Source of the DNA: Ramlibacter ginsenosidimutans
Lineage (GTDB): Bacteria; Pseudomonadota; Gammaproteobacteria; Burkholderiales; Burkholderiaceae_C
Reading direction: 5' to 3'
NCBI RefSeq assembly: GCF_016654015.1
Contig: NZ_JAEPWM010000001.1
Span: forward strand, 124,001-188,000
Length of the DNA stretch: 64,000 nucleotides
This document shows, piece after piece, positions 8,797-32,625 of this stretch. The position numbers and the translations under genes are program-made. A model generated the notes under the pieces. It was not told where the DNA came from, did not search any database, and saw only the letters and a list, made by a program, of their open reading frames with translations. The stretch's first letter is position 1, and each line of letters starts with the position of its first letter.

Positions 8797-9875
8797 CCCC
8801 TGGGTTCTGGCGGGGCCGCAAGGTCTTTCTCACCGGACACACCGGGTTCAAGGGCAGCTGGCTGAGCCTCTGGCTGCAGCAGCTCGGGGCCCAGGTCACC
8901 GGCTACGCCTTGCAGCCGCCGACGCAACCGAGCCTCTTCGAGCTGGCGGGCGTCGCCTCGGGGATGCGGTCCATCCTGGGGGATGTCCGGGACGGGGCGC
9001 ACCTTGCCGCGGCCATGAAGGACGCGCAGCCCGAGGTGGTGATCCACATGGCCGCGCAGCCGCTGGTACGCCATTCCTATGCGGAGCCGGTGGAGACCTA
9101 CGCCACCAACGTCATGGGCACCGTGCACCTGCTCGAGGCCGTGCGCCAGACTGCGTCGGTCCGCTCCGTCGTAAACGTCACAACCGACAAGTGCTACGAG
9201 AACCGCGAGTGGGTGTGGGCGTATCGCGAGGACGAACCCATGGGCGGCCACGATCCCTACAGCAGCAGCAAGGGGTGCGCGGAGCTCGTCACGGCAGCCT
9301 ACCGCAGCTCCTTCTTCCCGGCGGCCCTCCATGAGCGGCACCGCGTCGCCCTGGCCAGCGCCCGCGCCGGCAACGTGATCGGCGGCGGCGACTGGGCCAA
9401 GGACCGCCTGATCCCCGACATCCTCGCCGCGTTCGGCAAGGGCGAGCCCGTGGTGATTCGCAACCCCTCCGCCACGCGGCCGTGGCAGCACGTGCTGGAA
9501 CCGCTGCGCGGGTACCTGGTGCTGGCGGAGCGTCTCTACACCGACGGCACCGCCTATGCGGAAGGCTGGAACTTTGGCCCGTGGTCCGAGGACGCCCGCC
9601 CGGTGGAGTGGATCACGCGCGAACTCGCCGAGCGGTGGGGCGCCGGCGCCCGCTGGGAAGTGAGCGCCGGGGAACACCCGCACGAGGCGAACTACCTCAA
9701 GCTCGACATCTCAAAGGCGGGTGCCCGCCTGCAATGGCGGCCCGTGCTGCGCCTGGCCGAAGCGTTGGACCTGATCGTCCAATGGGACCGCGCGCGCTCG
9801 TCCGGCGCCGACCTGCACTCCCTCACCCTCACCCAGATTTCCGACTACCAATCCAGGGCCCTCGCGCCCATATGA
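8793..9875 (+). CDS. rfbG: CDP-glucose 4,6-dehydratase
   Basis: 360 residues. NAD-binding motif [11 protein letters not shown] near the N-terminus, the active-site block TTDKCYEN and YSSSKG (YxxxK) are those of CDP-glucose 4,6-dehydratases. It makes CDP-4-keto-6-deoxyglucose. It overlaps both neighbours by 4 bases (ATGA), so rfbF-rfbG-rfbH are tightly coupled. Confidence 0.94.
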
Positions 9876-11212
9876 CCCCGCTCCCGACAATGGAAAACGC
9901 GAAAACCAAAGCCCTGCGCGAGCAGATCGCCACGCTCGTCCAGGAATACGCCTCGATCGCCCTGCGCAGTGAACCCTTCCTGCCCGGTGCCACGATGATC
10001 CCGCCCTCGGGCAAGCTGCTCGATGCCAGCGAACTGAAGCTGATGGTCGAAGCGTCGCTGGACGGCTGGCTCACCACCGGCCGCTTCAACACCGAGTTCG
10101 AGAAGAAGCTGGCGGCCTTCATCGGGGTGAACCACCTGATCACGGTGAACTCGGGTTCGTCCGCGAACCTGGTCGCGTTCAGCACCCTCACCTCGCCCAA
10201 GCTCGGCGACCGCGCCATCAAGCAAGGCGACGAGGTGATCGGCGTGGCCTGCGGCTTCCCGACGACGGTGAACCCGATCCTCCAGTTCGGCGCCGTGCCG
10301 GTGTTTGTGGACGTGGACCGCTACACCCACAACATCGACGTGAGCCGCCTGGAACAGGCACTGTCGCCGAAGACCAAGGCGGTGATGATCGCCCACTCGC
10401 TGGGCAACCCGTTCAACCTCGACGCCGTGACGGCGTTCTGCAAGAAGCACGGCCTGTGGCTGGTGGAGGACTGCTGCGACGCCTTGGGCAGCACCTACCG
10501 CGGGAAGATGTGCGGCACGTTCGGCGACATCGGCACGCTGTCGTTCTATCCGGCGCACCACATCACCATGGGCGAAGGCGGCGCGGTCTTCACCAACAAC
10601 GACGAACTGAAGGTTATCGCGGAGAGCTTCCGCGACTGGGGCCGCGACTGCTACTGCGCGCCCGGCAAGGACAACACCTGCGGCAAGCGCTTCTGCTGGC
10701 AGCTTGGGGACCTGCCCGAAGGCTACGACCACAAGTACACCTACAGCCATCTCGGCTACAACCTGAAGATCACGGACATGCAGGCCGCCTGCGGCCTGGC
10801 GCAGTTGGAGAAGGCGCCGCGCTTCATCCAGGCCCGCAAGGACAACTTCGCGTTCCTGAAGGAGCGCCTGAAGGACTGCGAGGAATTCCTGCAGTTGCCG
10901 CAGGCTACCGAGCATTCCGATCCGTCCTGGTTCGGCTTTCCCATCACGCTGAAGGAAAACGCGCCGGTGAGCCGCGTGGACCTGCTCACCTACCTGGACC
11001 AGAACAAGGTCGGCACCCGCCTGCTGTTCGCCGGCAACCTCACGCGCCAGCCCTCCATGGCGGGAGCGAAGTACCGCGTCGTGGGCGACCTCACCAACAC
11101 GGATAACGTGATGAACAACACCTTCTGGATCGGCGTGCAGCCCTCGCTCACGTGCGAGATGCTGGACTTCTCCGCGCGCAAGATCGAGCAGTACCTCGGG
11201 GTGAACTTCTGA
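9872..11212 (+). CDS. rfbH: CDP-4-keto-6-deoxyglucose-3-dehydrase (E1), PMP and [2Fe-2S] enzyme
   Basis: 446 residues. The aminotransferase fold has lost its PLP lysine: at that position stands His229, in the block SFYPAHHIT, the known hallmark of E1. The cysteines fit the E1 [2Fe-2S] pattern CX57CX1CX7C exactly (Cys202, Cys260, Cys262, Cys270). E1 removes the C3 hydroxyl of CDP-4-keto-6-deoxyglucose and needs the reductase E3 to finish the reduction. No E3 gene is visible in the window. The start overlaps the rfbG stop; an alternative ATG lies at codon 7. The stop overlaps the ATG of a small fragment (TGATG). Confidence 0.94.
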
Positions 11213-11307
11213 TGGAGACGGTCGCACTGGCGCGGCGCATCCGCGCGAACGCTCTGCGCATGGTGCACCGTGCCGCCGCGCCGAGCGCGTGGGGTACCGG
11301 CCGGTGA
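11212..11307 (+). pseudogene. Remnant of a transketolase N-terminus
   Basis: A 31-codon frame starts at an ATG overlapping the rfbH stop (TGATG). Its peptide contains LARRIRANALRMVHRA, which strongly resembles the first helix of transketolase N-terminal subunits (typically LARRIR-ALRM-HRA-SHIG), and then diverges and stops at 11307. An intact transketolase N subunit lies 0.6 kb downstream. I read this as the truncated 5-prime end of a former transketolase gene that followed rfbH directly. The similarity is judged from memory of the family, not from a search. Confidence 0.55.
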
Positions 11308-11331
11308 AAACCTCCCTGGAGACGGTCCTGG

Positions 11332-11751
11332 ATGAAGCCGCCCTCTGCCTCTGAGGAGGGCGCTGGCTTGGGCGGTTTCAGGCGCCTCACCGACCACCAG
11401 TTCGTCCGCTTCCTGCTGGTCGGCGTCCTGAACACTCTCTTCGGCTACGGCTGCTTCGCCCTGCTCTTGTCACTCGGCTTGCACTACTCGCTCGCGCTGC
11501 TGCTTTCGACAATCCTCGGCGTGCTCTTCAACTTCAAGAGCACCGGGGCTCTGGTGTTCGGCGCCCGCGACAACCGGCTGATCGTGCGCTTCGTCCTGAC
11601 GTACACAGTGGTCTACGCCTGCAACGTCGGGGGCGTGCGCCTGCTGAACGAGGCGGGATTGTCTCCCGCGGTGGGAGGGGCCGTGTTGCTGCTACCCATG
11701 GCCGTGCTGGCTTTCATGCTAAACAAGAAATTCGTGTTTCACCGCTCGTAA
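11332..11751 (+). CDS. GtrA-family small membrane protein
   Basis: 139 residues with four hydrophobic segments (about 27-45, 50-68, 82-100 and 108-128) and the GtrA hallmarks FLLVGVLNTLFGYG near the start and LNKKFVF at the end. GtrA proteins are thought to move undecaprenyl-phosphate-linked sugars across the inner membrane, or to assist a GtrB-type transferase. A GtrB-like glycosyltransferase is encoded 2 kb downstream in the same direction. The ATG at 11332 has a weak GGAG ahead of it. It separates the transketolase fragment from the intact transketolase genes. Confidence 0.85.
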   Translation: MKPPSASEEGAGLGGFRRLTDHQFVRFLLVGVLNTLFGYGCFALLLSLGLHYSLALLLSTILGVLFNFKSTGALVFGARDNRLIVRFVLTYTVVYACNVGGVRLLNEAGLSPAVGGAVLLLPMAVLAFMLNKKFVFHRS

Positions 11752-28190: not shown

Positions 28191-28859
28191 TCAGAGCGCG
28201 CCCAGCCAGCAGGCGCGCTGGATGGCGGCCATCTTGTTGTCCACCTTCAGCTTGTTCATCGCGTTGGCCAGGTGGTAGTTGACCGTGCGCTCGGTGCACT
28301 GCAGCTCCTGCGCCGTCTCGCGCGCGGTCTTGCCCTGGAAGGCGAGTTGCAGGCATTCGCGCTCGCGCGGGCTCAGTCGCGAGCGCGCCGTCGCGATCGA
28401 TCGCTTCACCAGCGGCCAGATGTTCAGGGCCGACCAGGCCAGCAAGGCGGCGTCGGCGCGCGCGGTCAGTTCGCGCGGGCTGAACATGAAACATTCGAAT
28501 GCCCGGCCCGCGGGCAGCGAGAATTCCACCCGCACCAGGGTCTGGTAGCCGTGCGCCAGCCACAGCATGCGCCAGCGGCTGGTGTGCTGGGGATCGGACT
28601 TGGCGATGGTCTGCCAGGCCACCAGCGGTGCGTCGGAATCGCGCCAGCGCGCGCCGAAGTCACCGCTCTCGGCCAGAGCTTCGGCCGCTTCGGCAACGAT
28701 CGGCGGATGAACGGCGATCACCTGGCGATCGTCGGAGCCGCCGAACGGGTCGGGGCCCAGCACCACGACCGCTTCGACCGAGAATTCCCGCAGGGCGGCC
28801 ACCCAGTCACTGAGGATGCCGTCCAGGCTGACACTGTCAAAGTTAACAGGGATCCCCAT
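28191..28859 (-). CDS. LuxR-type regulator with N-terminal sensor-like domain
   Basis: 222 residues. Residues 162-222 are a LuxR-type helix-turn-helix of the quorum-sensing class (LSPREREC, then ERTVNYHLANAMNKLKV). Residues about 10-150 resemble an autoinducer-binding domain in length and position, but the usual acyl-homoserine-lactone contacts are not obvious, and no luxI is in the window. It is divergent from the sensor kinase gene of the alpha-hydroxyketone locus. The ATG at 28859 has no Shine-Dalgarno, so the start is uncertain. A lux-box-like palindrome overlaps codons 3-10 and may be its own binding site. Confidence 0.85.
   Translation of the reverse strand: MGIPVNFDSVSLDGILSDWVAALREFSVEAVVVLGPDPFGGSDDRQVIAVHPPIVAEAAEALAESGDFGARWRDSDAPLVAWQTIAKSDPQHTSRWRMLWLAHGYQTLVRVEFSLPAGRAFECFMFSPRELTARADAALLAWSALNIWPLVKRSIATARSRLSPRERECLQLAFQGKTARETAQELQCTERTVNYHLANAMNKLKVDNKMAAIQRACWLGAL
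28832..28851 (+). promoter_or_regulatory. lux-box-like operator upstream of the sensor kinase gene
   Basis: The site reads CACTGTCAAAGTTAACAGGG. It has the exact spacing of known lux boxes, CTGT-N8-ACAG. It lies about 78 bases (centre to ATG) upstream of the kinase gene and inside the first codons of the luxR-type gene. It shares 15 of 18 core bases with the site upstream of cqsA, in the same orientation relative to the downstream gene. Binding by the adjacent LuxR-type protein is inferred. Confidence 0.7.
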
Positions 28860-28919
28860 GCGCGTTCGTCGTTCGTACCACCGCCGTGCTGTGACAATAG
28901 CATCAACACACCATCACCC

Positions 28920-30245
28920 ATGAGCGAGCATTTGCAGCGCGCCTACCCTTTGCCACCGCGGGCTGCACTCGAGTCCATCACGATGCGTTTGCGCCAGCGG
29001 GCATCCAACGAGGTTCTGCAACCTCTGATGGAGCCGATTCTCCACCCTTCGCAGTGGCGCATCCGCGCCCTCGGGGTGTCGACGTTCCTGGGCCATCCCC
29101 TCTTCTACGTGGTGTGGGCCTGGTGGCTGCCGCAGCCTTACGAAAATCTGCTGCTGCGCGCGCTCATGGCCCTGTGCGGCCTCAGCCTGCTCGTGCTGCC
29201 GGGAGTCCGGGTGTCGCCGCCCACGCGCGGGGCGGCCGTCACCTTTTCGCTGATCTTCTGGCTCACCCTGCCCTGGTTCTTCTGGTGGATGTACTTCTGC
29301 AACAGCGGCAACGCGGTCTGGCTCGCCAGCCTGGGCGCGGCCATGCTGATCTACTACCACCTCACGGACTGGCGGCTGGCAACCCTGGGCTGCGCGACCG
29401 GCCTGCTGTTCGCCTGGCTTTGCTTCGAAGCAGTCGGTCCGGCGGTGCCTGCACTCGGCTTCGCGCAGGCGGCGACCAACACCGTCGTGCTCTCCTTCTC
29501 CTGGTTCATGGGCCTCGTGCTGGGGCTGTCGTCGTCCAACCTGCGGCGCGAGCAGCTCAATTACACGCTGGGCACGATGGGCATCATGGCGCACGAACTG
29601 CGCACGCCACTCGCGACCATGCAGCTGATCGCCGAGGCGGTGCGCAACGAGGCGCCGCAGTACGCCGGGGAAAGCGGCGAGCGCCTGCAGCAGCTGGGGA
29701 CGCGCCTGAACACGCTGGTGCGCAACATGAACCACCAGATCGACATGCAGATCACCAACGCGCGCCTGATGCGGCCGATCGGCAACCCCGAACGGATCTC
29801 CGCGGCGCAGCTGGTGCGCGAGGCGATCGACGCCTATCCCTACCGCAGCACGCGCGAGAAGCAGGCGGTGGTGCTGCGCATCTACGGCGACTTCCACTTC
29901 TACGGCTCCCGCGACATGTTCCACCAGGTCGTGGACAACCTCACGAAGAACGCCCTGCGCTCGCTGGCCGCGGCCTCGTCCTCGCCGCAACCGGGCGACC
30001 TGCTGATCGAGGTGGGTGCGCATGGAGCGCGCGGCCGCATCGCCTTCACCGACAACGGGGTCGGGATGGACGCCGAGCTGCGCAAGCGCATCTTCCAGCC
30101 CTTCGTCTCCACCGACCGCGGCACCGGCCACGGGCTCGGACTGGCCTTCTGCCAGCGGGTCGTGAATGGCGCCCACGGGACCATCCGCGTGAAGGCCGCC
30201 CCGCACAAGGGCGCGGTGTTCACGATCGAGCTGCCGGTTGCCTAG
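28920..30245 (+). CDS. CqsS/LqsS-like sensor histidine kinase of the alpha-hydroxyketone circuit
   Basis: 441 residues. A polytopic membrane sensor of about six segments spans residues 48-205. The transmitter follows: phospho-acceptor His225 in MAHELRTPL, N box at 333-345 (MFHQVVDNLTKNA), G1 at 377-384 (TDNGVGMD) and G2 at 401-408 (GTGHGLGL). This layout matches CqsS/LqsS/JqsS kinases, which sense alpha-hydroxyketone autoinducers. Unlike Vibrio CqsS there is no attached receiver domain; a separate response regulator follows 15 bases later. A GACAAT at 28893-28898 could be a -10 element. Confidence 0.85.
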   Translation: MSEHLQRAYPLPPRAALESITMRLRQRASNEVLQPLMEPILHPSQWRIRALGVSTFLGHPLFYVVWAWWLPQPYENLLLRALMALCGLSLLVLPGVRVSPPTRGAAVTFSLIFWLTLPWFFWWMYFCNSGNAVWLASLGAAMLIYYHLTDWRLATLGCATGLLFAWLCFEAVGPAVPALGFAQAATNTVVLSFSWFMGLVLGLSSSNLRREQLNYTLGTMGIMAHELRTPLATMQLIAEAVRNEAPQYAGESGERLQQLGTRLNTLVRNMNHQIDMQITNARLMRPIGNPERISAAQLVREAIDAYPYRSTREKQAVVLRIYGDFHFYGSRDMFHQVVDNLTKNALRSLAAASSSPQPGDLLIEVGAHGARGRIAFTDNGVGMDAELRKRIFQPFVSTDRGTGHGLGLAFCQRVVNGAHGTIRVKAAPHKGAVFTIELPVA

Positions 30246-30260
30246 AATCCTGACAGCTCC

Positions 30261-31238
30261 ATGACTCTCCCCCTCTTCCACCGGCCCGGGACCGTCGTCT
30301 TCCTGGACGACGATCCGGACTACCTGGAGATGCTCGCGCTCGTCCTGCCGCGCAGCTGGCACCTCAAGCTGTTCCTGCGGCCGTCCGACTGCATCGCGCA
30401 CCTGATGCAGGAGCCGCCCTTCTGGGAGGCCGACGCCTGGAACCAGCAGCAGCTGATCGCCAACTGGGGCGAAGGCAAGCCTCTGATCCCGCAGGTGCTG
30501 GCCTACTGGTCGCGCTACACCGAGCGCTACGCGCTCTCGCGCGTGGTGGTGGTGGACTTCTCGATGCCGGGCATGGACGGCCTGCAGGTGCTCGCCGAGC
30601 TGGGCGACTGGCCTGGCGCGCGCATCCTGCTCACCGGCCAGGCCGACGAACAGGTGGCGGTGCGCGCCTTCAACCGCGGACTGATCGACCAGTTCATTCC
30701 CAAGCAGACGCAGGACATCTCGCGGCGGCTGCGCGAGGCCGTGGAGCACCTGCTGTTCACGTCGCATGCGCGGCATGCGCAGATCTGGCGCACCACGCTC
30801 ACCCAGGAGCAGAACGCGCTGCTGCGCTCTCCCGGCGTGGACGCGTGGCTCACGTCCTTCACCCAGAAGCACTGGGTGGAGCACGTGGTCATCGGCCAGC
30901 CTTTCGGCTTGCTGGGCATGGATGCCCACGGCAAGGTGGCGTGGCTGCAGCTGGAAACGCGGCAAGGGCTGGACGCCCTGGCCGAAGTGGCGGAAGTGGC
31001 GGGGGTGCCGGCGGCGGACGTGCAGGAGATCCGCTCGGGCACCAAGCTCGCGGACATCGAGCTGCGCCAGGCCCTGTCCTCGACGCAGCCGATCTCGCTC
31101 GTGAACGCGTTCGCGGTCGGCGAACCGGGTGGACTGCTGGGCGCGGTCTTCCCCGTGGAGACACCTGCCGGCCCCGATCCGGACAACAGCTACGCCCAGT
31201 GGCTGTCCCGCCAGCCCAAGCGGCACGTGCAGGACTGA
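30261..31238 (+). CDS. LqsR-like response regulator
   Basis: 325 residues. The receiver domain has its acidic pocket at 16-18 (DDD), phospho-acceptor Asp99 (VVVVDFSMPGMDG), Thr125 and Lys148. About 45 extra residues (roughly 48-92) are inserted between the usual beta-2 and beta-3 region. Residues 150-325 form an output part without a recognisable DNA-binding, GGDEF or EAL motif. Legionella LqsR is likewise a response regulator with no classical output domain. It probably receives phosphate from the adjacent kinase. Confidence 0.8.
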   Translation: MTLPLFHRPGTVVFLDDDPDYLEMLALVLPRSWHLKLFLRPSDCIAHLMQEPPFWEADAWNQQQLIANWGEGKPLIPQVLAYWSRYTERYALSRVVVVDFSMPGMDGLQVLAELGDWPGARILLTGQADEQVAVRAFNRGLIDQFIPKQTQDISRRLREAVEHLLFTSHARHAQIWRTTLTQEQNALLRSPGVDAWLTSFTQKHWVEHVVIGQPFGLLGMDAHGKVAWLQLETRQGLDALAEVAEVAGVPAADVQEIRSGTKLADIELRQALSSTQPISLVNAFAVGEPGGLLGAVFPVETPAGPDPDNSYAQWLSRQPKRHVQD

Positions 31239-31243
31239 CTGCT

Positions 31244-31277
31244 CACCCGAAAATCTGCTGAAGCAGATTTTCGGGTG
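31244..31277. terminator. Bidirectional terminator-like hairpin between response regulator and cqsA
   Basis: A perfect 16-base inverted repeat (CACCCGAAAATCTGCT, then its complement) separated by two bases. It folds as a 15-bp stem with a TGAA loop. It lies between two convergent genes, 5 bases after one stop and 10 bases before the other. There is no long T-run outside the stem, but AAAA and TTTT sit within it. It could serve both strands. Confidence 0.6.
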
Positions 31278-31287
31278 GCCTGATTCG

Positions 31288-32544
31288 TCAGTCCGGCTTC
31301 GTGCGCTGCCGGCGCGCGATCTGCCACTCCCACGGTTTCACGATGGGCGCGATTTCCTCGGCGACCGCTTCGACATGCGAGAGTTCGGCGTCGGTGAGGC
31401 CGGCATTGAGCGTCAGCCGCACCATCGACCGGTTGCGGCTGGTCGCCGGCGCGCAGAAGACCGCGCCGAAGACGTTGCGGCGCTCCAGCTCGTCGCGCAA
31501 TGCCAGCGTGTCCTTCTCCGGGCCGGCCTCCAGGGAGATGATCTGCTCGCTGCCCTGGTGGATCGGGTAGCCCAGCTCGGTGAGCCGGGTGCGCAGCCGG
31601 CGCGTGTTGCGCACCAGCGCCGCGCGCTCCGCGTCGCTGCGCTCGACGACACCCAGCGTCGCGTGCAGGCCGGCGACCTCCTGCGGCAGCAGGCAGGAGC
31701 TGAAGATGCTCGGGAAGCTGTGGCACATCAGGTAGTGGCGCAGTTCGTGCGGCATCGTGAAGAAGCCGGCGCGGCCCGCGAAGGCTTTCGCCAGGCTGGC
31801 GGTGATGAAGTGCACCCGATGCGACAGCCCGAGCTCGGCGCACAGGCCGCGGCCCTGCGGGCCGTGCGTGCCGAGCGAGTGCGACTCGTCCACCAGGATC
31901 ATGCAGCCGCCCTGCTCCGCGACCTCCACCATGCGCGTGAGCGGGCACAGGGCGCCGGTGGTGCTGTACACCGAGTCCACGATCACCAGCCCGGGCCCGC
32001 CGCGCGCGACCATGCGCGCGAGGTGCTCGGGGTCGTTGTGCCGGAACGCGGTGGCCACGGCGCCCGCCGCACGCACGCCTTCCCAGAGCGACATGTGCGC
32101 GAGGCTGTCCACGTAGACCGGGGTCTCGCGGTCCGCGACGACCTGGATCAGGCCCAGGTTCGCCGTGTAGCCGGACTGGCACAGCAGCGCGCCGTCCTTG
32201 CCGACGAAGTCCGCAAGCGCCGCCTCGAAGCGCGCATGTGGGCTGGAGTCCAGCTGGAACACGCCGGACTGCACCACGAAGTCGCGCTGGTCGCGCAATG
32301 CGGCGATCTGCGCATTCACGATGTCCGCGTGGCCCGTGATGCCCAGGTAGTCGTTGCCGTCGAGGCGGACTGCATTGGGACCCGGGGTGGTGCCGTGCGT
32401 CACGAAGCGCTTGCCCCACTCGTTTTCGTAGCGATCCCGGAATTCGCGGGCGATCCGCCCGCGCAAGTGTTGCGAAAGGCCCGGATCGGTGCCTCTGGCC
32501 GGACCGGCGGTTCCGGTTGTGATATTTTTCTCGACGACTTCCAT
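31288..32544 (-). CDS. cqsA: Alpha-hydroxyketone autoinducer synthase (CqsA/LqsA family)
   Basis: 418 residues. A PLP enzyme of the alpha-oxoamine synthase type: Schiff-base Lys253 in ITASLAKAFAG, PLP contacts Asp219 and His222 in LVDESHSLG, and DSVYSTTGALCPL. These blocks match CqsA, which condenses an acyl-CoA with an amino acid or SAM to give CAI-1 type hydroxyketone signals. It converges on the kinase-regulator pair. AGGAG lies 6 bases before the ATG and can pair with an upstream CTCCT. A lux-box-like site lies about 71 bases upstream. Confidence 0.9.
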   Translation of the reverse strand: MEVVEKNITTGTAGPARGTDPGLSQHLRGRIAREFRDRYENEWGKRFVTHGTTPGPNAVRLDGNDYLGITGHADIVNAQIAALRDQRDFVVQSGVFQLDSSPHARFEAALADFVGKDGALLCQSGYTANLGLIQVVADRETPVYVDSLAHMSLWEGVRAAGAVATAFRHNDPEHLARMVARGGPGLVIVDSVYSTTGALCPLTRMVEVAEQGGCMILVDESHSLGTHGPQGRGLCAELGLSHRVHFITASLAKAFAGRAGFFTMPHELRHYLMCHSFPSIFSSCLLPQEVAGLHATLGVVERSDAERAALVRNTRRLRTRLTELGYPIHQGSEQIISLEAGPEKDTLALRDELERRNVFGAVFCAPATSRNRSMVRLTLNAGLTDAELSHVEAVAEEIAPIVKPWEWQIARRQRTKPD

Positions 32545-32550
32545 GGACTA

Positions 32551-32565
32551 CTCCTCGCTCAGGAG
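32551..32565 (-). promoter_or_regulatory. Small hairpin covering the cqsA Shine-Dalgarno
   Basis: In the cqsA leader CTCCT (32565-32561) and AGGAG (32555-32551) form a 5-bp stem with a 5-base loop. The AGGAG is the Shine-Dalgarno, 6 bases before the start codon. The stem could mask it and lower translation. It is short and may be chance. Confidence 0.35.
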
Positions 32566-32605
32566 TTGCCATTGAAGCAAGTTCGAACGACCGGACGCGG
32601 GCGCA

Positions 32606-32625
32606 CCCTGTCAAGCTTGACAGGT
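32606..32625 (-). promoter_or_regulatory. lux-box-like operator upstream of cqsA
   Basis: Read toward cqsA the site is ACCTGTCAAGCTTGACAGGG; its core is a perfect 18-base palindrome (32607-32624). It fits the lux-box layout ACCTGT-N8-ACAGGT with one mismatch at the end. Its centre is about 71 bases upstream of the cqsA ATG. It is nearly the same as the site before the kinase gene. TTGACA occurs within it on both strands, so overlap with a -35 element is also possible. Confidence 0.75.

Follow-up and report, generated by a model that had tools for sequence, protein, structure and literature searches.

A LuxR-type gene and conserved lux-box-like sites in an alpha-hydroxyketone-type quorum-sensing locus of Ramlibacter ginsenosidimutans

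By which route does the signal of an alpha-hydroxyketone-type quorum-sensing locus reach its genes? The question is raised by a locus of Ramlibacter ginsenosidimutans in which the genes for a CqsA-type autoinducer synthase, a sensor histidine kinase and a response regulator of the LqsR family are accompanied by a gene for a LuxR-type protein and by two lux-box-like palindromes. The locus lies in a stretch of 64,000 nucleotides (contig NZ_JAEPWM010000001.1, positions 124,001 to 188,000; "the window" in the following), which belongs to a genome of 5.3 Mb (G000). In the available text of PMC3376566 and PMC10653808, the way in which LqsR-family regulators reach gene expression is called unresolved. 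A preliminary description of the window had proposed that one LuxR-type protein co-regulates the synthase and receptor genes, and this is still the best reading, as the boxes are kept in related genomes and were not found in the scanned cqsA loci without luxR. The locus is best explained as an Lqs/Cqs-type alpha-hydroxyketone quorum-sensing locus with its own LuxR-type transcription factor; taken as a whole and together with the mechanism set out below, this explanation appears fairly probable.

The CqsA-type synthase scored 558 bits against NF005526 (cut-off 428) and matched the CAI-1 synthase structure 3hqt with an E-value of 6.4e-98. In the kinase, HisKA and HATPase_c domains were found; its N-terminal 227 residues gave no PDB sequence match below an E-value of 1, and this sensor part presumably resembles that of CqsS. 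According to Pfam, the response regulator consists of a receiver domain only and no DNA-binding domain was found in it. It matches Legionella LqsR by sequence (6sy9, E-value 7.6e-29, profile positions 9-263) and by fold (Foldseek E-value 1.4e-18, template modelling score (TM) 0.68/0.72), the model having a predicted local distance difference test value (pLDDT) of 92. The residues D16-D18, D99, T125 and K148 are invariant in 41 sequences. Judged by sequence and modelled fold, the response regulator is a member of the LqsR family. The LuxR-type protein contains a GerE helix-turn-helix domain (PF00196, E-value 3.7e-18) and, in agreement with the preliminary description, its gene is divergent from the kinase gene and holds one of the palindromes in its first codons (codons 4-9).

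Both palindromes follow CTGT-N8-ACAG, which is the geometry of lux boxes, and both are situated near the putative promoters of the predicted target genes. Their positions (Table 1) agree with the earlier placement, as do the distances, with 78.5 bases between the centre of the first (28841.5) and the kinase start (28920) and 71.5 bases between the centre of the second (32615.5) and the cqsA start (32544). The number of core bases shared by the two had to be corrected from 15 of 18 to 14 of 18 (15 of 20 over the 20-mers used originally). Within the window, the loose pattern CTGT-N8-ACAG was found twice versus 0.60 expected occurrences, and at least two occurrences were seen in 10 of 100 shuffles. 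The loose pattern in the window alone was therefore rejected as evidence. The boxes are far above chance because they are conserved and co-occur with luxR in related genomes.

The luxR locus set was made up of the window's own locus, 27 loci from other genomes of the family and 80 from named genomes (the top 80 among 169 relatives); after removal of five duplicates and the distant locus L060, it comprised 102 loci. CqsA/LqsS/LqsR-type loci with luxR occur in Ramlibacter, Caenimonas, Polaromonas and Hydrogenophaga, to which most of the best 80 named relatives of luxR belong; the others are one assembly listed as Pseudoxanthomonas and some whose names go no further than the family or order. The box ahead of cqsA was considered readable when at least 130 bases preceded the gene, which applied to 78 non-redundant loci (in L047, L208, L222, L232 and L240, cqsA is present and its upstream region too short to read). 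CTGTCA-N4-TGACAG is exact in 63 of these 78 loci and has at most one mismatch in 71 (one mismatch in 8 loci, two in 2, three in 3, four in 1 and five in 1). None of 16600 dinucleotide shuffles (200 for each of 83 cqsA upstream regions, duplicates included) contained the exact box. The box inside luxR shows no mismatch in 27 of the 102 loci, one in 59, two in 13 and three in 3, which amounts to 86 loci with at most one mismatch. The preliminary description had made its proposal depend on the same boxes being kept ahead of orthologous genes; most of the clade has retained both, and no box was found in the scanned cqsA loci that lack luxR.

The box inside luxR is also constrained at the DNA level. 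Codon usage was counted in 107 luxR rows, duplicates included. Codon 4 (proline) is CCT in 106 of 107 rows, compared with 9% of the proline codons in codons 11-90, which served as background. Codon 5, where valine, is solely GTT (57/88) or GTC (31/88), codon 7 (phenylalanine) is TTT in 98 of 102 rows versus 32% elsewhere, codon 8 (aspartate) is GAC in 102 of 102 versus 71% elsewhere, and codon 9 (serine, 105 rows) is either AGT (72) or AGC (33). Codons 10, 12, 13 and 16 showed no codon excess. Some later codons are biased too (e.g. 65 and 81), so that the match to the box, not bias alone, is what is unique to this site. Coding constraint was rejected as the cause of the luxR-internal box, given the rare synonymous codons retained.

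Of the 200 family genomes searched, 28 carry luxR (including the distant G070), 24 carry cqsA and 22 carry both. Thus, luxR is present in 22 of 24 cqsA-bearing versus 6 of 176 cqsA-less genomes (Fisher p ~9e-22). The 18-base box occurs in 18 of the 28 luxR-bearing versus 5 of the 172 luxR-less genomes; the reversed pattern, as a control, was seen in 1 of all 200. When 250 genomes of the order were searched, 2 matched the luxR profile, both within the family, and 14 had cqsA, 12 of these being outside the family. The luxR-less cqsA loci, i.e. these 12 and G009 and G129 of the family, were scanned over the 300 bases upstream of the matched cqsA part, and the box was found in 0 of 14 (best hits with at least four mismatches); the same scan recovered exact boxes in three luxR-bearing loci. 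The assembly of G009 is fragmented and its missing luxR could therefore be due to a gap. If the boxes were sites of another, unlinked transcription factor and luxR a mere neighbour, the one or two copies of the 18-base box in five luxR-less family genomes would be accounted for. The co-occurrence of box and luxR (18/28 versus 5/172, and all 14 luxR-less cqsA loci boxless), the constraint on the box inside luxR itself and a lux-box geometry next to a gene with a GerE helix-turn-helix speak against such a factor and make it highly improbable. Based on these comparisons, one LuxR-type protein very probably co-regulates the synthase and receptor genes through the boxes.

For the sign of this regulation, the position of the boxes relative to conserved CAAT elements is informative. 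In 69 of the 71 cqsA promoters with at most one mismatch in the box, a CAAT element (consensus TTCAATGG) lies 42-44 bases downstream of the box centre, and no conserved -35 was found between the two. On the kinase side, the CAAT element (consensus GACAAT) is located 42-45 bases from the box in 51 of 102 loci and 51-55 bases in 36, and these two spacing groups differ by about one helical turn. The spacing of 54.5 bases given for the window in Table 1 was measured in a way that reads half a base lower than the 102-locus survey. The CAAT elements are candidate -10-like promoter elements, and boxes upstream of such elements at fixed spacing without a -35 form the layout expected of activator-dependent promoters. 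Repression of cqsA and the kinase operon by the LuxR-type protein, for instance at low density, would fit the luxR-internal box, as a protein bound there, past the luxR start, would act as a block, and repression by LuxR-type proteins is known from other systems. Boxes placed upstream of CAAT elements at fixed distances, with about a helical turn between the groups and without a conserved -35, argue for activation instead, and we regard repression of these two units as decidedly unlikely. The LuxR-type protein probably restrains its own gene, judging from the box in its first codons.

A further constant of these loci is the response regulator. Pairs were counted in loci whose sequence extends for 3 kb or more on the kinase side, the named-genome ones coming again from the top 80 among 169 relatives. 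All 28 such family loci and all 71 from named genomes have a regulator match no further than 3.5 kb from luxR; 22 of the former and 63 of the latter show the complete divergent and convergent arrangement. In five of the 28 (L039, L048, L051, L058, L059) and five of the 71 loci (L194, L195, L197, L203, L206), luxR and the regulator are accompanied by neither a kinase nor cqsA found nearby. In these ten loci, 70-179 bases separate the starts of luxR and the regulator, and therefore the luxR-internal box stands directly ahead of the regulator. A kinase near luxR in L194 and L197 was rejected as a partner, as it is unrelated (26% identity). A luxR gene with kinase and regulator, without cqsA nearby, was found in no family locus and in three named-genome loci (L172, L178, L196), which are possible listeners not making the signal. 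The one family locus left over, L060 (G070), shows another arrangement: a distant LuxR (33% identity) is encoded directly beside an LqsR-like gene (29%), the latter being upstream of luxR in the same direction (about 9700-11534), and a variant palindrome, CTGTCG-N4-CGACAG, precedes the next gene. LuxR and the LqsR-type regulator are a constant pair.

Because no DNA-binding domain was recognised in the regulator and its gene remains linked to luxR, a natural candidate for its transcriptional output is the LuxR-type protein; for this coupling, we consider the chances about even. The coupling has to be compared with readings in which the LuxR-type protein receives a signal itself. Its N-terminal domain is conserved among relatives, gave nothing credible in a search of PDB sequences, and showed no match to the autoinducer-binding domain PF03472 at an E-value of 0.1. 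Two sets of relatives (27 and 41 proteins) all carry the helix-turn-helix pattern E-x3-L-x5-G, and not one of these proteins has the TraR-type ligand motif W-x3-Y-x8-D-P. Foldseek placed the full-length model (pLDDT 86) closest to TraR, QscR, RhlR and SdiA (best E-value 5.1e-09, TM 0.38-0.52), LasR giving a lower TM of 0.29-0.31. The best reading of the model is an acyl-homoserine-lactone-receptor-like fold, but without the Pfam domain and ligand motif of such receptors. No LuxI scored over the cut-off in the 27 luxR-bearing genomes, with one match below the cut-off in G113; 14 control genomes were silent too, so absence is not proved.

An ordinary LuxR solo, listening to acyl-homoserine lactones of other species, would have such a fold and would be encoded in genomes without luxI over the cut-off (with the silent controls and the weaker G113 match to be kept in mind). 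The canonical ligand motif is missing, however, and linkage to an LqsR-family regulator is constant, which leaves this explanation an almost negligible chance. Alternatively, the LuxR-type protein could be a cytosolic receptor for a hydroxyketone or other lipid signal, with the kinase-LqsR branch running in parallel, perhaps via its own output part. The likeness of the full-length fold to TraR, QscR, RhlR and SdiA (best E-value 5.1e-09) and the conserved N-terminal domain agree with a receptor. We still regard it as unlikely, although worth keeping in mind, because PF03472 was not detected at an E-value of 0.1, W-x3-Y-x8-D-P occurs in 0/27 and 0/41 relatives, and the luxR-regulator pairs persist in ten loci without kinase and cqsA found and in three without cqsA.

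For the preferred reading, in which the LuxR-type protein serves the regulator, the following mechanism is proposed. A LuxR dimer would bind CTGTCA-N4-TGACAG sites just upstream of two promoters and thereby activate cqsA and the kinase-regulator operon together. As the second site is in the first luxR codons, its occupation by LuxR would tend to hinder luxR expression as well. The kinase would sense the signal and phosphorylate the LqsR-type regulator, and this regulator would then modulate the LuxR-type protein, probably through direct contact between the two. That the protein binds these sites, in which direction it regulates and that it is coupled to the regulator are all inferred from sequence comparison.

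Several points weigh against this scheme. The cqsA upstream region has at least two box mismatches in 7 of the 78 readable loci despite the presence of luxR (L050, L056, L057, L226, L229, L231, L234), and the luxR-internal box is usually imperfect (one mismatch in 59/102, two or three in 16/102). The TTCAAT ahead of cqsA makes a poor -10 for sigma-70. No kinase-side CAAT is present at 42-45 or 51-55 bases in 15 of 102 loci; besides, on the strand of luxR the kinase-side element is TATTGT, and it could therefore serve luxR instead. Concerning the regulator, the available text of PMC3376566 calls the function of the C-terminal part of LqsR unknown and that of PMC10653808 states that the mechanism still awaits study; in the latter, the output part of LqsR is also reported to have a GGDEF-like fold, with no cyclase activity detected. 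This GGDEF-like part offers another output route. The N-terminal domain of the LuxR-type protein may itself bind a ligand, given the receptor-like fold of the model. Finally, the evidence for the coupling between regulator and LuxR-type protein is of a single kind, namely gene neighbourhood.

Table 1. Genes, predicted binding sites and candidate promoter elements of the locus (window coordinates).
Feature	Position	Strand	Remarks
luxR-type regulator gene	28191..28859	-	222 amino acids; GerE helix-turn-helix at residues 161-215; N-terminal acyl-homoserine-lactone-receptor-like fold (model) without PF03472
Sensor histidine kinase gene	28920..30245	+	441 amino acids; HisKA and HATPase_c; LqsS/CqsS position
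LqsR-family response regulator gene	30261..31238	+	325 amino acids; no DNA-binding domain by Pfam
cqsA/lqsA, alpha-hydroxyketone-type autoinducer synthase gene	31288..32544	-	418 amino acids
Lux-box-like palindrome CTGTCAAAGTTAACAG	28834..28849	.	within luxR codons 4-9; centre 78.5 bases 5' of kinase start
Perfect lux-box-like palindrome CTGTCAAGCTTGACAG	32608..32623	.	centre 71.5 bases upstream of cqsA
GACAAT, conserved CAAT (candidate -10-like) element, kinase side	28893..28898	+	54.5 bases from box centre
TTCAAT(GG), conserved CAAT element of the putative cqsA promoter	32571..32576	-	42.5 bases from box centre

By eye, an inverted repeat was seen at window positions 31245-31280, between the converging regulator and cqsA genes, which is perhaps a two-way terminator. 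In locus L049 (G152), the luxR reading frame lacks an in-frame ATG where it is usually found, due to an apparent one-base difference in the C run beside the box; this is either an assembly error or real.

The locus combines features of systems described separately. With LuxI/LuxR systems and LuxR solos it shares the GerE-class helix-turn-helix, the predicted acyl-homoserine-lactone-receptor-like fold and the CTGT-N8-ACAG geometry, but differs by the lack of a LuxI over the cut-off, of PF03472 and of W-x3-Y-x8-D-P, and by the linkage to a hydroxyketone-type synthase and an LqsR-type regulator. A CqsA-type synthase and a sensor kinase are also found in the CqsA/CqsS system of Vibrio, whose LuxR/HapR is TetR-type, whereas the Ramlibacter locus has an LqsR-type regulator and a GerE-type LuxR protein. 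Signalling in Vibrio proceeds via LuxU/LuxO and Qrr small RNAs to HapR or its LuxR, according to the text available from PMC3376566. The Lqs system of Legionella pneumophila (LqsA, LqsS, LqsR) has a corresponding synthase, kinase and LqsR-family response regulator; a LuxR-type gene and boxes wired into the locus are the difference here. Clusters of lqsA and lqsS homologues in Polaromonas were already reported in PMC3376566, as far as its available text goes, and the locus as such is therefore known there. Janthinobacterium sp. HH01 has a beta-proteobacterial cqsA/lqsA homologue with a kinase and a response regulator (jqsA, jqsS, jqsR; PMC3566124); in its main text, the words luxR and promoter do not appear, the comparison being one with the text of that paper and not with DNA. 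That the LqsR family can be re-wired is illustrated by PhcX of Ralstonia solanacearum, an LqsR-family regulator beside phc genes, and Hydrogenophaga is one of three genera with a phcX-type gene next to phc genes (both from the available text of PMC10653808). PhcX differs in that it is tied to signalling by a methyl ester and to the global regulator PhcA, and the word luxR is not used in the main text of PMC10653808. Among the open-access papers listed (at most 20 per search), no title or abstract was found which describes a LuxR-type gene wired to such a cqsA/lqsA locus.

In this locus the LqsR-type regulator is accompanied by a conserved DNA-binding protein encoded next to it, for which a binding site is predicted and promoters and target genes can be proposed. 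With these at hand in environmental bacteria, among them several named isolates, the regulator's output becomes directly testable. If the proposal is true, two signalling families usually treated apart become joined, and the joint switching of synthase and receptor genes is explained. For the relatives of Ramlibacter in soil and water, the conserved DNA switch that these genes share with a LuxR-type neighbour may supply the step missing between the signal and its effect on genes.

The exact box CTGTCA-N4-TGACAG was found at 52 sites in the 27 luxR-bearing genomes versus 2 for the reversed control. Outside the quorum-sensing locus, 28 of 29 boxes are intergenic (as judged by a codon-usage open reading frame caller, which may miss genes). 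Twenty proteins neighbouring these outside boxes were scanned; seven gave no Pfam match at 1e-5, and the matched ones include ShlB-type two-partner-secretion transporters (4), phosphonate-type periplasmic binding proteins (2), an NDH2-like oxidoreductase and an AHSA1-domain protein. A search for ShlB-type genes returned 44 matches (21 of the 27 luxR-bearing genomes searched). The exact box is present in 4 of the 26 ShlB-type upstream regions scanned, namely L095 (G105), L099 (G047), L100 (G164) and L107 (G042). All four are among the eight best-scoring ShlB-type family members, a subset picked after seeing them, and ShlB-type genes were rejected as a general box target.

In the genome of R. 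ginsenosidimutans itself, a perfect box is located between the genes for an M16 peptidase and rsmD (L068:5607-5622; G000:C1:647607-647622). It is followed by CAAT at 44 bases and, by eye, by an inverted repeat and eight T 60-90 bases further, which may belong to a candidate small RNA. Of 25 loci examined, 14 have both flanking genes, and four of these (G000, G097, G198, G134) carry the box between them. CAAT follows at 44 (G000), 43 (G198) and 40 bases (G134) and is absent in G097. Rfam gave no match to the candidate small RNA at an E-value of 0.5 in four loci, and its body is not conserved except for the box and a GCTGTCAC stretch. In a wider form of the proposal, the LuxR-type protein would act by contact as the DNA-binding output of the LqsR-family regulator, its old ligand pocket being freed for the regulator or replaced by it; the regulon of the pair would extend to genes for two-partner secretion in some relatives and to the candidate small RNA in the present genome. 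In this full form the proposal is tentative, with the chances somewhat below even.

A perfect box without CAAT nearby lies 46 bases ahead of the AHSA1-domain gene in the same genome (L069:5986-6001; G000:C1:1158986-1159001). Exact boxes also precede genes for phosphonate-type periplasmic binding proteins in two genera (L102 of G164 and L114 of G097).

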